From the NCBI RefSeq assembly GCF_004364935.1, contig NZ_SOBT01000009.1, positions 1 to 64,000 of the forward strand: a stretch of DNA of 64,000 nt. Reading direction: 5' to 3'. Positions 4,827 to 46,072 of this stretch are shown piece after piece. The notes beneath the pieces were generated by a model. The model had not been told where the DNA came from, did no database searches, and saw only the letters and a list, made by a program, of their open reading frames with translations. How positions within the stretch are numbered: position 1 is the stretch's first letter; each line of letters begins with the position of its first letter. A program made the position numbers and the translations under genes. Source of the DNA: Panacagrimonas perspica. GTDB taxonomy: Bacteria > Pseudomonadota > Gammaproteobacteria > Nevskiales > Nevskiaceae.

Positions 4827-4975
4827 TCACCGCAAAGGCGCAAAGGGAAAAGAAAGGACGCAAAGAAATGCGTGAAGTGAAAACACGCATCCTCGGGGCG
4901 GACGCACCCACTCCTTTCCTGCCTTTGCGACCTTTGCTTCATCTTTTCCTTTGCGACCTTTGCGTCCAAAGCTTT
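4827..4975. repeat. Inverted-repeat element copy A (degenerate) between fdsA and fdhD
   Basis: Left arm CACCGCAAAGGCGCAAAGGG... (about 4828-4866) and an inverted, diverged right arm of CCTTTGCGACCTTTGC blocks (about 4912-4968) frame some 45 bp without a gene. Same family as the copies at 7895, 26895, 28484, 41007, 43305 and 45969. Once transcribed it would fold into an imperfect hairpin between fdsA and fdhD. Confidence 0.85.
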
Positions 4976-7873: not shown

Positions 7874-7894
7874 GGCCTAGCTCCGTACTGCCGG

Positions 7895-8362
7895 GATATT
7901 CACCGCAAAGGCGCAAAGGGAAAAGAAAGGACGCAAAGGACTACACATTGTTCGCCACACGCTTGATTCCTGAGCGCATCGATTCCGAATGGAAGTTGAG
8001 TACGAGTCCAAGCTTCTTGTTTGCGAGGCGAAGATAGGTGAGGAGTTGCGCCGTATGGACAGGAGCGAAAGCCGCCACTGCCTTGATCTCAACAATGACG
8101 AGATCCTCGACGAGCAGATCCAGGCGGTACGCCTCATCAAGTTCGACCCCTTTATAAGTGACCGGTAACAGGGTCTGCCTGACCGCCCGGATACCGCGTT
8201 GTTCGAGCTCGACCGCCATTGCCCGTTCATAGGCCGATTCGAGCAAGCCCACGCCAAGGATGCGATGCACCTCCAGCGCAGCGCCGATGACGGAATGCGA
8301 GATCTCATTTTCAGTCACCTTTGCGACCTTTCTTTTCCCTTTGCGCCTTTGCGGTGAAAATC
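7895..8362. mobile_element. Inverted-repeat element copy B, carrying a GxxExxY gene, inside the fds operon
   Basis: Arms of 39 nt at 7901-7939 (CACCGCAAAGGCGC...ACGCAAAGG) and 8318-8356 are inverted and differ at one base; similarity extends outward over GATATT/GATTTT. Between them lies one complete gene whose stop begins 1 bp after the left arm and whose GTG overlaps the first base of the right arm. Six other copies in the window have the same arms without the gene. No target-site duplication is evident. The term mobile element is my inference from dispersal and cargo. Confidence 0.65.
7941..8318 (-). CDS. GxxExxY protein (PD-(D/E)xK nuclease-like), cargo of an inverted-repeat element
   Basis: A 125-residue protein with the family motif GLLESAY (G24, E27, Y30). 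A nuclease-like core D67 (YRLDLLVED) then E77-x-K79 (VIVEIKAV) fits the PD-(D/E)xK fold to which GxxExxY proteins are assigned; no biochemical function is established. The start is GTG at 8318. The ribosome-binding sequence, AAAGG 8 nt upstream, lies inside the right arm of the flanking repeat, so the element supplies the translation signal. The gene splits fdsB from fdsA on the same strand, so it should be expressed with the operon. It has no evident role in formate oxidation. Confidence 0.88.
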   Translation of the reverse strand: MTENEISHSVIGAALEVHRILGVGLLESAYERAMAVELEQRGIRAVRQTLLPVTYKGVELDEAYRLDLLVEDLVIVEIKAVAAFAPVHTAQLLTYLRLANKKLGLVLNFHSESMRSGIKRVANNV

Positions 8363-8363
8363 C

Positions 8364-12830: not shown

Positions 12831-12837
12831 GCGCCTC

Positions 12838-12905
12838 GTAGCCCGGACGAAGTCCGGGGCTTGTCTCACAGGTCGAGGAAAACCCCGGACTTCGTCCGGG
12901 CTACG
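12838..12905. repeat. GTAGCCCGG double-hairpin repeat, copy 2
   Basis: Variant with CCCGGACGAAGTCCGGG arms; the outer GTAGCCC/GGGCTAC ends are inverted. It sits 8 bp after the stop of the exported-protein gene and before the MFS gene at 12979. Confidence 0.9.
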
Positions 12906-20404: not shown

Positions 20405-20555
20405 GCCGCGTACTCCTCGTTGCAGAGTTTTCGTCGAATGCAGCCGTCTGTGCGGCTGACGGGCCCGAGAGGCCCGAACGAAAGTCTAGGGGGCGCGAAC
20501 GCAGCGTCCCTGCAAGCGAACGAAGATCGGGAATTCTTCCCGGCACATCCGACCC

Positions 20556-20623
20556 GTAGCCCGGACGAAGTCCGGGGTTACCCTCGCATACGGAGCGCAA
20601 CCCCGGACTTCGTCCGGGCTGCG
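20556..20623. repeat. GTAGCCCGG double-hairpin repeat, copy 5
   Basis: CCCGGACGAAGTCCGGG arms, with right end GGGCTGCG instead of GGGCTACG. Lies 8 bp beyond the metY stop, upstream of PQQ dehydrogenase 2. Confidence 0.9.
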
Positions 20624-20631
20624 GGTGCGTG

Positions 20632-24167: not shown

Positions 24168-24194
24168 CGTGTTCTCGGTAAGAGGATGGGACCC

Positions 24195-24263
24195 GTAGCC
24201 CGGACGAAGTCCGGGGTCGCGCTCGGCTGGACGAGCACCGTCCCGGACTTCGTCCGGGCTACG
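24195..24263. repeat. GTAGCCCGG double-hairpin repeat, copy 7
   Basis: CCCGGACGAAGTCCGGG arms; between the thiolase start and the MaoC stop (3 bp away) within the minus-strand run. Confidence 0.9.
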
Positions 24264-24266
24264 GAT

Positions 24267-26894: not shown

Positions 26895-26995
26895 CACCGC
26901 AAAGGCGCAAAGGGAAAAGAAAGGACGCAGAGGTAAAGAACAAAAAAGGTCATTGCTCCTTTGCGACCTTTCTTTTCCCTTTGCGCCTTTGCGGT
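26895..26995. repeat. Inverted-repeat element copy C between boxB and boxA
   Basis: Arms 26895-26933 and 26958-26995 match those of the GxxExxY element almost base for base, including its one-base asymmetry (GGACGC versus GGTCGC), but only 24 bp lie between them. It looks like that element without its gene. Transcribed, it makes a 38-bp hairpin in the box mRNA. Confidence 0.93.
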
Positions 26996-28483: not shown

Positions 28484-28579
28484 ACCGCAAAGGCGCAAAG
28501 GGAAAAGAAAGGGCGCAGAGAAAAGAAAGCCAATCGAAAAACTTTGCGTCCTTTCTTTTCCCTTTGCGCCCTTTGCGTC
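28484..28579. repeat. Inverted-repeat element copy D between boxC and boxB
   Basis: Arms 28484-28520 (ACCGCAAAGGCGCAAAGGG...) and 28542-28579 are inverted around about 20 bp. Second member of the family inside the box operon. Confidence 0.92.
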
Positions 28580-35839: not shown

Positions 35840-36634
35840 ATGACGACGAAACTCGCACTGATCCCCGGCGCCACACGCCCGCTGACGATCGAATACCAGT
35901 GGATCGACGCGCAGGCTCCCGATGCGCCATTGCTCGTGTTCCTGCACGAAGGACTCGGCTCGATCTCGATGTGGCGCGATTTCCCGCACCGGCTGTGCGA
36001 GGCGGGAGGATTTCGCGGGCTGGTCTACTCACGACCGGGTTACGGGCTGTCGACGCCGCGCGCGGCGGACGAGAAATGGTCGACCCGCTTCATGCACCAG
36101 CAGGCGCAGGAGGTGCTGCCCGACCTGTTGTCCGCCCTTTCGATCGATGTGGAGAAACAGAAGCCCTGGCTGTTCGGACACAGCGACGGCGCATCGATCG
36201 CGTTGCTGCACGCGTCGCGCTATCCGGACCGCGTGAGCGGCGCGGTCGTGCTCGCGCCGCACCTGTTCGTCGAGGACCTGAGCGTCGACAGCATCGCCAA
36301 GGTCCGCACGACATACCGGGAGACCGGGCTGCGCGAGAAGCTCGCGCGCTATCACGCCGACGTCGATTCGGCGTTCTGGGGCTGGAACGACATCTGGCTC
36401 GATCCTGCGTTTCGCGACTGGAACATCGAGAAGGAGGTCGCGCGGATACGCTGCCCGGTGCTCGCGATCCAGGGCGTGAACGACGAGTACGGGACGATGC
36501 GGCAGATCGACCGGATCGCGGAGCTCGTGCCCGGTGCCGAACTGCTCAAGCTCGAAGCCTGCGGGCATTCACCGCACCGGGATCAACCGGAGAAGGTGAT
36601 CGAAGCGACGGTGCGGTGGATATCGCAAACGTAG
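35840..36634 (+). CDS. Alpha/beta-fold hydrolase
   Basis: A 264-residue cytosolic alpha/beta hydrolase with nucleophile S115 (FGHSDGAS), acid in IQGVNDEYG (about 215-223) and His in ACGHSPHRD (about 242-250). ATG 35840 gives the usual start; longer in-frame extensions run through the groEL terminator. Hydrolases of this kind often accompany box genes, perhaps as thioesterases that rescue CoA; this is inference. The stop TAG comes from repeat copy 11. Confidence 0.87.
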   Translation: MTTKLALIPGATRPLTIEYQWIDAQAPDAPLLVFLHEGLGSISMWRDFPHRLCEAGGFRGLVYSRPGYGLSTPRAADEKWSTRFMHQQAQEVLPDLLSALSIDVEKQKPWLFGHSDGASIALLHASRYPDRVSGAVVLAPHLFVEDLSVDSIAKVRTTYRETGLREKLARYHADVDSAFWGWNDIWLDPAFRDWNIEKEVARIRCPVLAIQGVNDEYGTMRQIDRIAELVPGAELLKLEACGHSPHRDQPEKVIEATVRWISQT

Positions 36635-36698
36635 CCCGGACGAAGTCCGGGTTGCGCTCCGTATGCGAGGGAAACCCCGGACTTCGTCCGGGCTACGG
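36631..36698. repeat. GTAGCCCGG double-hairpin repeat, copy 11, giving stop codons to two convergent genes
   Basis: The left GTAG supplies the TAG stop of the plus-strand hydrolase (36632-36634). On the minus strand the mirror-image GTAG supplies the TAG stop (36693-36695) of the small gene coming from the right. Confidence 0.92.
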
Positions 36699-36944
36699 CG
36701 GCGTTGGCCGACACACGGGGCCGGGAACGAGCCGCATACCGAGCGCCGCACGCAGCACGACCTGCGCACGCTGGCGTCGTTCCTTGCTCGCCGGATACCG
36801 CTGCACCCAATCGAACAGGTCCGCGATATCCAGCGGGTGCTTGCCCGCCCATTCCCCGGCGCGACGCAAGGCGGCCTCGCCCTCCTCTTCCTCGTCGAGG
36901 TAGAGCGACAGCAGCTCGTCGAGCTCGGCCGGAATGCTGTTCAC
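36693..36944 (-). CDS. Small acidic protein of unknown function
   Basis: An 83-residue protein, acidic at the N-terminus (AELDELLSLYLDEEEEGEA) and basic later (RYPASKERRQRAQVVLRAAL). I take GTG 36944, since the frame upstream overlaps the next gene. It begins 22 bp after the BKACE gene on the same strand and would be the last gene of the ketone-carboxylase run. Not recognised. The C-terminus stops in repeat copy 11. Confidence 0.6.
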   Translation of the reverse strand: MNSIPAELDELLSLYLDEEEEGEAALRRAGEWAGKHPLDIADLFDWVQRYPASKERRQRAQVVLRAALGMRLVPGPVCRPTPP

Positions 36945-41006: not shown

Positions 41007-41117
41007 TCGCAAAGGCGCAAAGCAAGAAAAGAGAGAACGCAGAGGAAGGATGGGTGAAAACCGGGCTCTATCTCAAATCTTTGCGTCCTTGCTTCAAGCC
41101 CTTTGCGCCTTTGCGTT
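41007..41117. repeat. Inverted-repeat element copy E (diverged)
   Basis: Left arm GCAAAGGCGCAAAGCAAGAAAA... (41008-41045) and right arm CTTTGCGTCC...TTTGCGCCTTTGCG (41079-41115). Lies between the HyuB-type gene and the reductase gene, next to repeat copy 12 of the other family. Confidence 0.85.
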
Positions 41118-43304: not shown

Positions 43305-43382
43305 AACGCAGAGGCGCGGAGGTCGCAGAGAAAAACTAGGCAGACGCTTTCGCCGCTCTTTGCGTCCTTTGCGCCTTTGCGT
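43305..43382. repeat. Inverted-repeat element copy F, overlapping the 3' end of a HyuA gene
   Basis: Left arm AACGCAGAGGCGCGGAGG... (43305-43330) and right arm CTTTGCGTCCTTTGCGCCTTTGCGTT (43357-43382). The right arm is read through by the HyuA gene and encodes NAKAQRTQR near its C-terminus; the stop is in the loop. Confidence 0.85.
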
Positions 43383-45968: not shown

Positions 45969-46072
45969 ACGCAAAGGCGCAAAGAAAAGCGAAGAGGAGG
46001 ACGCAAAGAATCGGAGGAATTGCCGATCGATTCTTTTGCGTCCTTTCTTTTCACCTTTGCGCCTTTGCGCTT
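45969..46072. repeat. Inverted-repeat element copy G
   Basis: Arms 45969-46007 (ACGCAAAGGCGCAAAG...) and 46034-46070 inverted around about 27 bp, between the Acetone_carb_G gene and the alpha/beta hydrolase gene. Confidence 0.9.

Follow-up and report, generated by a model that had tools for sequence, protein, structure and literature searches.

A GxxExxY nuclease gene between inverted arms of a dispersed repeat: a probable, non-homologous counterpart of RAYT/REPIN systems

The closest described systems are the RAYT enzymes and their repeats. According to the portion of the primary report available to us, RAYT genes are flanked by two inverted REPs with which they coevolve, and REP abundance is tied to the enzyme; the genes hold fixed positions with preserved arms, and their proteins evolve faster than their neighbors (PMC2817692). 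REPINs are described, in the accessible part of a second paper, as inverted REP doublets with spacers (PMC3116915). Here, we analyzed a 64,000-nt stretch of the Panacagrimonas perspica genome (the window), which contains a gene of the common GxxExxY/PDDEXK_3 family. The open-access literature that we found, in its accessible text, assigns no function to this family and holds no report of repeats flanking its genes, the latter being no proof of novelty. Six 15-mers and six 16–17-mers of the arm words described below were also unmatched in open-access literature, for which a string search is weak evidence.

Set beside those excerpts on RAYTs, the GxxExxY gene likewise lies between two inverted copies of a dispersed repeat, which also occurs as inverted doublets around spacers. 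The repeat class is matched to the protein clade, with abundance tied to clade for words 1 and 3, and orthologues are fixed in place, keep their arms and evolve faster as proteins than fdsA in five of six pairs. However, the enzyme is a predicted PD-(D/E)xK protein rather than an HUH/Y1 enzyme, its arms are made of 2–5 tandem 7–8-nt CRCNRAK words rather than GTAG- or CGTC-headed REP palindromes, and the family is also found in a MAG labeled Methanosarcinales. Since RAYT features are present and both the enzyme family and the repeats are different, we reasoned that the GxxExxY system works like RAYT but is not RAYT. The explanation that we favor, with moderate confidence, is that GxxExxY and its arms are a non-homologous RAYT/REPIN counterpart, in which cognate repeats are acted on, and probably spread, by a nuclease whose gene stays in place.

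The GxxExxY ORF (7941–8318, minus strand) runs from a GTG start at 8316–8318 to a TAG stop at 7941–7943 and encodes 125 amino acids (Table 1). An earlier reading made from the sequence alone (the sequence-only reading) had described 39-nt arms around this gene, inverted and identical at 38 of 39 positions, and alignment of 7901–7939 with 8318–8356 bore this out; a longer version of the arms (7894–7939 and 8318–8363) is identical at 44 of 46 positions. Also as claimed, both ends of the ORF touch the arms, and the AGAAAGG sequence 8 nt ahead of the GTG is inside the start-side arm.

Table 1. The GxxExxY gene, its arms and gene-less arm copies in the window
Position	Strand	Feature	Basis
7941..8318	-	GxxExxY gene, 125 aa, predicted PD-(D/E)xK fold; E27, D67, E77-x-K79, Q91xxxY95	TIGR04256, PF13366, AlphaFold2, residue conservation
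7894..7939	+	Stop-side arm: words CGCAAAGG, CGCAAAGG, 12-nt spacer, CGCAAAGG	Arm alignment
8318..8363	-	Start-side arm, inverted copy; holds probable ribosome-binding sequence	Arm alignment
26896..26995	.	Gene-less arm pair around 24 nt; absent from matching interval of same-genus genome G001	Window and G001 comparison
28484..28573	.	Gene-less arm pair; absent from matching interval of G001	Window and G001 comparison
4831..4846	+	Arm word without close partner copy; absent from matching interval of G001	Word search and G001 comparison
41008..41115	.	More diverged arm pair; different version at this place in G001	Window and G001 comparison
43367..43381	-	Arm word; diverged partner to its left	Word search
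45970..46069	.	Diverged arm pair	Word search

The protein matched TIGR04256 over positions 1–115 of 116 with 145.5 bits (cut-off 35; E = 7.9e-43) and PF13366 (PDDEXK_3) with 143 bits (cut-off 22; E = 6.5e-42). PF13366 was the only hit of a Pfam scan at E ≤ 0.001, and the HUH/Y1 domain PF01797 was not among the hits. Across 228 aligned sequences, D67 was conserved in 226, E77, K79 and Q91 in 225 each and Y95 in 223; the window protein has all of them. We take E27, D67, E77, K79 and Q91–Y95 to be a RecB/Cas4-type catalytic site, the QxxxY-type motif presumably being that of Cas4/RecB-like nucleases. The AlphaFold2 model was confident (mean pLDDT 94.3). The best PDB match in Foldseek was Cas4 SSO0001 (E = 8.9e-4, the only one below 0.001; TM-score 0.44), followed by an alkaline exonuclease and lambda exonuclease, with ACE1 and AdnAB lower; the top Cas4 and exonuclease matches, with TM-scores of 0.44–0.52, are distant, which we counted against a RAYT-like role. 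VIA-align returned Z-scores only moderately above common values, 9.3 for Cas4 SSO0001 (rmsd 4.5, 102 residues) and 8.5 for a Spirosoma linguale protein (rmsd 3.2, 99 aligned). A PADLOC Cas4 profile matched weakly (E = 5.3e-4), and the best hit of a sequence search of the PDB had an E of 0.21. As modeled, the protein thus has a Cas4/RecB-like PD-(D/E)xK fold and is not an HUH transposase. It resembles Cas4, RecB-like nucleases and lambda exonuclease in its fold and QxxxY-type motif, a likeness of fold and weak profile alone, and differs from them in being a 125-aa protein with its own pair of arms. Carriage of GxxExxY by phages or plasmids was rejected because of its near-absence from their records: none of 50,697 phage records and no PHROG matched, 7 of 72,556 plasmid records did (all 7 typed non-mobilizable), and a relative is encoded by 1 of the 64 IMG/VR stretches in which one peptide pattern was matched. 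Outside bacteria and archaea, the part available to us of one report lists a GxxExxY protein in the gene table of an algal virus (Chrysochromulina parva virus; PMC12085832), which argues against a purely cellular family.

Gene-less copies of the arms are dispersed in the window and the genome. The window has 13 occurrences of the word CGCAAAGGCGCAAAG (at most 2 mismatches) where 0.34 would be expected, and 0 of 100 shuffles reached 13; it had no Rfam match. At 26895–26995, the sequence-only reading had seen the same arms with the same one-base asymmetry around only 24 bp. The arms, the A/T asymmetry and the 24-nt interior were all there, together with a second base difference, such that the arms of this copy (26896–26995) are identical at 36 of 38 positions. 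The five more diverged copies that it had mentioned agree with our sites near 4831, 28486, 41008–41115, 43367 and 45970–46069. The A/T asymmetry of the gene copy and the 26896 copy is not universal in the genome: among 20 scorable elements, 7 have A/T as their left/right bases, 4 have A/A and 9 have other combinations.

The whole genome (G000; 5.4 Mb in 16 contigs) has exactly one GxxExxY gene. By contrast, the word CGCAAAGGCGCAAAGG (at most 1 mismatch) is present in 122 copies, 67 forward and 55 reverse, versus 0 for the reversed-word control. Among the matches listed, we counted 54 pairs of converging arms, plus 14 arms that stood alone; in this count, the pair starting at 26898 was mis-ended by a chance match at 26951, its true partner being counted as a single arm. 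Apart from the gene copy, the arm pairs are about 47–188 nt long. Across 104 arms, the first 15 positions were 89–100% conserved and the remainder less, in part through ascertainment because these positions are the search word. A comparison of 27 G000 interiors of at least 25 nt gave 0 matches at E ≤ 1e-3, and 49 interiors of gene-less elements from four genomes had only three exact 12–13-nt stretches in common at E ≤ 0.01 and no remnant of the gene (best tblastn E = 0.41). The gene-less units are MITE-like in that they are short with inverted termini; however, their interiors are related neither to one another nor to the gene, and the gene-bearing copy was not seen multiplying. Lacking any notable likeness of this kind, they give no impression of having arisen from the gene-bearing copy by deletion. 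Unrelated interiors are also not what ordinary whole-element copying would predict, and this counts against the explanation that we favor as well.

We then asked whether GxxExxY genes are generally bracketed by such arms, a check proposed by the sequence-only reading. A cross-phylum set of 80 loci was picked by protein alone (the best 80 of 577, motif-limited) and included Bacteroidota, Acidobacteria, cyanobacteria, Planctomycetota, Verrucomicrobia, Chloroflexi and MAGs labeled Methanosarcinales. An ungapped inverted-repeat score of at least 14 was observed in 39 of the 76 loci with full flanks, compared with a maximum of 11 in 60 shuffles. Tandem words, scored by regular expression at 78 genes (the 80 loci minus two with short flanks), pointed inward on both sides of 41 and outward at 2, and were found on one side only of 27 and on neither side of 8; the last two classes count against a RAYT-like role. 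One of the 8 word-less loci, L133, has a 44-nt inverted repeat that escapes the word pattern. At 2,299 control positions on the same contigs, the words were inward at 2, outward at 1 and present on any side at 132, and 0.91 Mb of flank of these contigs held 29 more inverted word pairs versus 0 in the reversed control. In 18 named genomes, 38 of 46 genes reached an inverted-repeat score of at least 13 (47 of 54 listed matches were examined, one was too near an edge, and 18 were already among the 78). The word pattern had been shaped on these first sets, and the only held-out sample came from the phylum of the window (398 genomes, 65 of them with the family). From its listed matches we took 70, namely the 30 that came as loci and 40 selected to spread the sample, and dropped one for a short flank; among the remaining 69 genes, 49 had inward words, 1 had outward words, and 50 scored at least 13. 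Chance or a composition artefact has a negligible probability given the shuffles, these control positions and a reversed-word control that gave no hit in any of the 85 genomes of the order set described below. With 41 of 78, 38 of 46 and 49 of 69 genes against 2 of 2,299 control positions, the bracketing of GxxExxY genes by inverted arms is real and general across bacteria and archaea. In G089, only 8 of 14 paralogues reach a score of 13, which is counted against a RAYT-like role.

While the arms are dispersed, the gene stays in place. The start of fdsA was strongly matched in 25 genomes, and the fdsB-fdsA junction could be read in 24 of them (all but G031). Seven of these, from three genera, have the GxxExxY gene and its arms there (G000, G001, G020, G021, G023, G024 and G033). 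The other 17 junctions are gene-less, consisting of a short spacer in 13 genomes, an arm pair without the gene in G016, and other inverted repeats in G018, G027 and G028 (L199, L194 and L202), where their relatives hold the GxxExxY element. GxxExxY genes of other clades also sit at loci common to relatives. Fixed loci without arms had been named by the sequence-only reading as a case that would speak against it; the loci were indeed mostly fixed, but with arms. G089 has 14 full-length GxxExxY genes and a contig-end fragment; the closest pairs are 42–55% identical, and there are no recent copies among the 14.

These observations bear on what the sequence-only reading had proposed, namely a gene-carrying element with MITE-like descendants, that is, an autonomous transposon with GxxExxY as its cargo or enzyme and internally deleted copies. 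Inverted termini and gene-less copies with the same arms are what such a transposon would have. It is nonetheless improbable, given the same locus in seven genomes of three genera, the divergence of the G089 paralogues, the single gene in G000 versus 54 arm pairs among the matches listed, and 49 interiors without a gene remnant. A classical transposon with MITEs was rejected because the interiors are unrelated and the gene is fixed. The general bracketing and the dispersal of arms without the gene are what stands of the proposal, and its MITE-like descent fell on the fixed place of the gene, the lack of recent copies in G089 and the unrelated interiors.

The protein is under purifying selection, as dN/dS was 0.03–0.15 in five pairs. 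One in-frame TAG is present in the gene copy of G001. The dN of the gene exceeded that of fdsA in five of six pairs, for example 0.245 versus 0.056 (G000–G001) and 0.215 versus 0.016 (G020–G024), the exception being G020–G021 (0.024 versus 0.027). Misframed fdsB comparisons of G000 with G001 or G033 (27% identity) were disregarded. The gene dS was finite in five pairs; in four of them it was 1.7–3.0 versus 0.3–0.5 for fdsA (L001 versus L032, L035 versus L041 and L048, and L036 versus L041), and the relation was reversed in G020–G021 (0.22 versus 0.46). In G000–G033, the gene dS was saturated. Replacement by divergent alleles at the fixed locus is possible, the alternative being codon bias (GC3 0.66 versus 0.90).

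The arm pairs, on the other hand, come and go while the gene stays. One arm pair of G021 is missing in six genus mates. A second site has an element with related interiors common to G021, G023 and G024 and lacking in four mates, and at a third site common to the same three genomes the G023 interior differs. The comparison of occupied and empty sites suggested by the sequence-only reading therefore yielded elements present or absent between genus mates, but not precise, clean insertions: no insertion with clean borders or a target duplication was caught at the compared sites, where the flanks are too diverged to define borders, and we counted this against a RAYT-like role. Such presence and absence, together with 7 word copies in G020 versus 46 in G021, indicate that the repeats turn over; this speaks of movement or loss and not of which enzyme is involved. 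As both of these genomes bear the gene, the difference in copies also counts against the explanation that we favor.

The same data weigh on an alternative in which the arms are host or protein-regulatory sites that GxxExxY binds for self-regulation, DNA organization or hairpin repair, and which spread by, for example, gene conversion. The probable ribosome-binding region of the gene within the arms, the fixed gene position and the unrelated interiors of the elements would all suit it. The presence and absence of whole elements between genus mates and the 7 versus 46 copies in G020 and G021 do not, nor does the dependence of two words' abundance on the gene clade, which it allows in part. We regard regulatory sites as unlikely, though as the most serious competitor to a repeat-dispersing nuclease.

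To relate the repeats to the protein, we used the order set of 85 genomes, of which 28 have the gene (18 with one match, 2 with one split match and 8 with two or three), and assigned protein clades by eye from motifs and shared loci. Of the 13 genomes that have a gene of clade A or B, 11 held word 1 (CGCAAAGGCGCAAAG) at least 5 times, versus 2 of 72 others, and the word was present in 0 of 15 genomes holding only another clade. Similarly, 11 of the 13 genomes with clade D held word 3 (CRCAGATTNCRCAGATT) at least 5 times, versus 2 of 72 others, and this word was seen once, in 1 of 15 genomes holding only another clade (Fisher p = 2.7e-10 for each word, uncorrected for kinship). G003, which has both B and D genes, has both words (18 and 50 copies). 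In contrast, word 2 (CGCAAATGAACGCAAAT) showed no significant tie to clade C in the 85 genomes (1 of 7 versus 1 of 78), and five genomes without the gene have 8–26 words (G008, G030, G042, G050 and G083); both observations count against a RAYT-like role. Arms distributed independently of the gene, the other case that the sequence-only reading had set against itself, were therefore not found for words 1 and 3, two of the three words tested. At two clade D loci (L051 and L052, in G075 and G077), the locus is kept without paired arms, K79 is replaced by R, and the genomes hold 1 and 5 words, which looks like decay of the whole system.

The type of word also follows the protein. In a set of 106 proteins whose genes have arms on both sides, whether the word ends in G (CRCNRAG) or in T (CRCNRAT) goes with the identity of residues 94 and 115–117; the exceptions at residue 115 are T in three proteins and R in L040. 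In the held-out sample, where 46 of 69 genes could be classed, the 39 G-word genes had K/R115 in 36 cases and T/S at residue 94 in all 39, and none of the 7 T-word genes had either; the exceptions were T115 in two and I115 in one, and residue 115 agreed in 34 of 37 after collapse at 80% identity. The most telling case is a Neolewinella genome (L065; G085), in which two LTY-type proteins with Q115 go with ...AT words and a third with R115 goes with ...AG words. On trees of 106 and 152 proteins, however, the word type changes 3 times, against shuffled means of about 20 and 26.9, so that inheritance explains much of the agreement between clade and word, and independent switches number only 1–3. 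Given these few switches, the exceptions, and 6 changes of residue 115 versus 3 of the word on the tree, a code linking residue 115 to the last base is a hypothesis only.

Could another enzyme, such as a RAYT or an IS transposase, mobilize the repeats, with the GxxExxY gene as a passenger? A search of G000 for Y1_Tnp genes did find two. One of them (L211) is flanked by GTAG-REPs, neither has the word CGCAAAGG within 3.3 kb, and across phyla the word tracks the GxxExxY clade; we therefore regard a passenger gene as very improbable, and a RAYT as mobilizer of the arms was rejected on the lack of CGCAAAGG words beside either Y1_Tnp gene. The window also has hairpins of the form GTAGCCCGG...CCGGGCTAC that look like GTAG-type REPs (12837–12905, 20552–20626, 24193–24264 and 36611–36716), with 11 words per strand.

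Returning to a nuclease that tends its own repeats, the sequence-only reading had called the PD-(D/E)xK protein the obvious candidate for movement or maintenance, and general bracketing and clade-dependent words support it as a candidate acting on the arms. We infer binding, cleavage and mobilization of the arms as follows. A nuclease encoded by a usually single-copy gene, kept at a fixed place, would recognize 2–5 tandem 7–8-nt words (CRCNRAG for the clade of the window protein) in two inverted arms, which would surround its own gene and dozens of short gene-less elements. It may bind the word arrays and cut or nick there, acting either on duplex DNA or on hairpins that the arms could form; host repair or replication would then copy the arm pair elsewhere. 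By doing so, the nuclease would maintain the repeat population of the genome.

A broader proposal, about which we are more doubtful, is that GxxExxY nucleases of bacteria and archaea could be a second class of enzymes that maintain repeats, of independent evolutionary origin. A PD-(D/E)xK nuclease acting by itself, helped by no HUH or DDE transposase, would generate palindromic word arrays and spread them, its C-terminal loop reading the last base of the word and so giving many clade-specific repeat families genome-wide. In such a loop, K/R115 and two more residues, the second Gly, would read ...AG, and Gln/Glu/Gly with a shortened loop would read ...AT. If true, there would be a function for GxxExxY/PDDEXK_3 and an owner for a large class of dispersed CRCNRAG/CRCNRAT repeats, and RAYT/REPIN biology would gain an independent replicate with different chemistry and a test of why bacteria keep single-copy nucleases tending palindromic repeat families. 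Clade-specific words make recognition directly testable with protein and arm pairs.

Arms of other kinds were also observed. CAGGAT-word arms surround GxxExxY proteins of another clade (L312, L313 and L053) in named cyanobacterial genomes and in the order of the window. A divergent GxxExxY gene (L352, in G240) lies between 42-nt inverted arms of quite different sequence with a score of 39. Lastly, L379 and L382 combine A-ending words (CACGGAAA and CACAGAAC type) with a C-terminal loop of another form and may represent a third recognition class.
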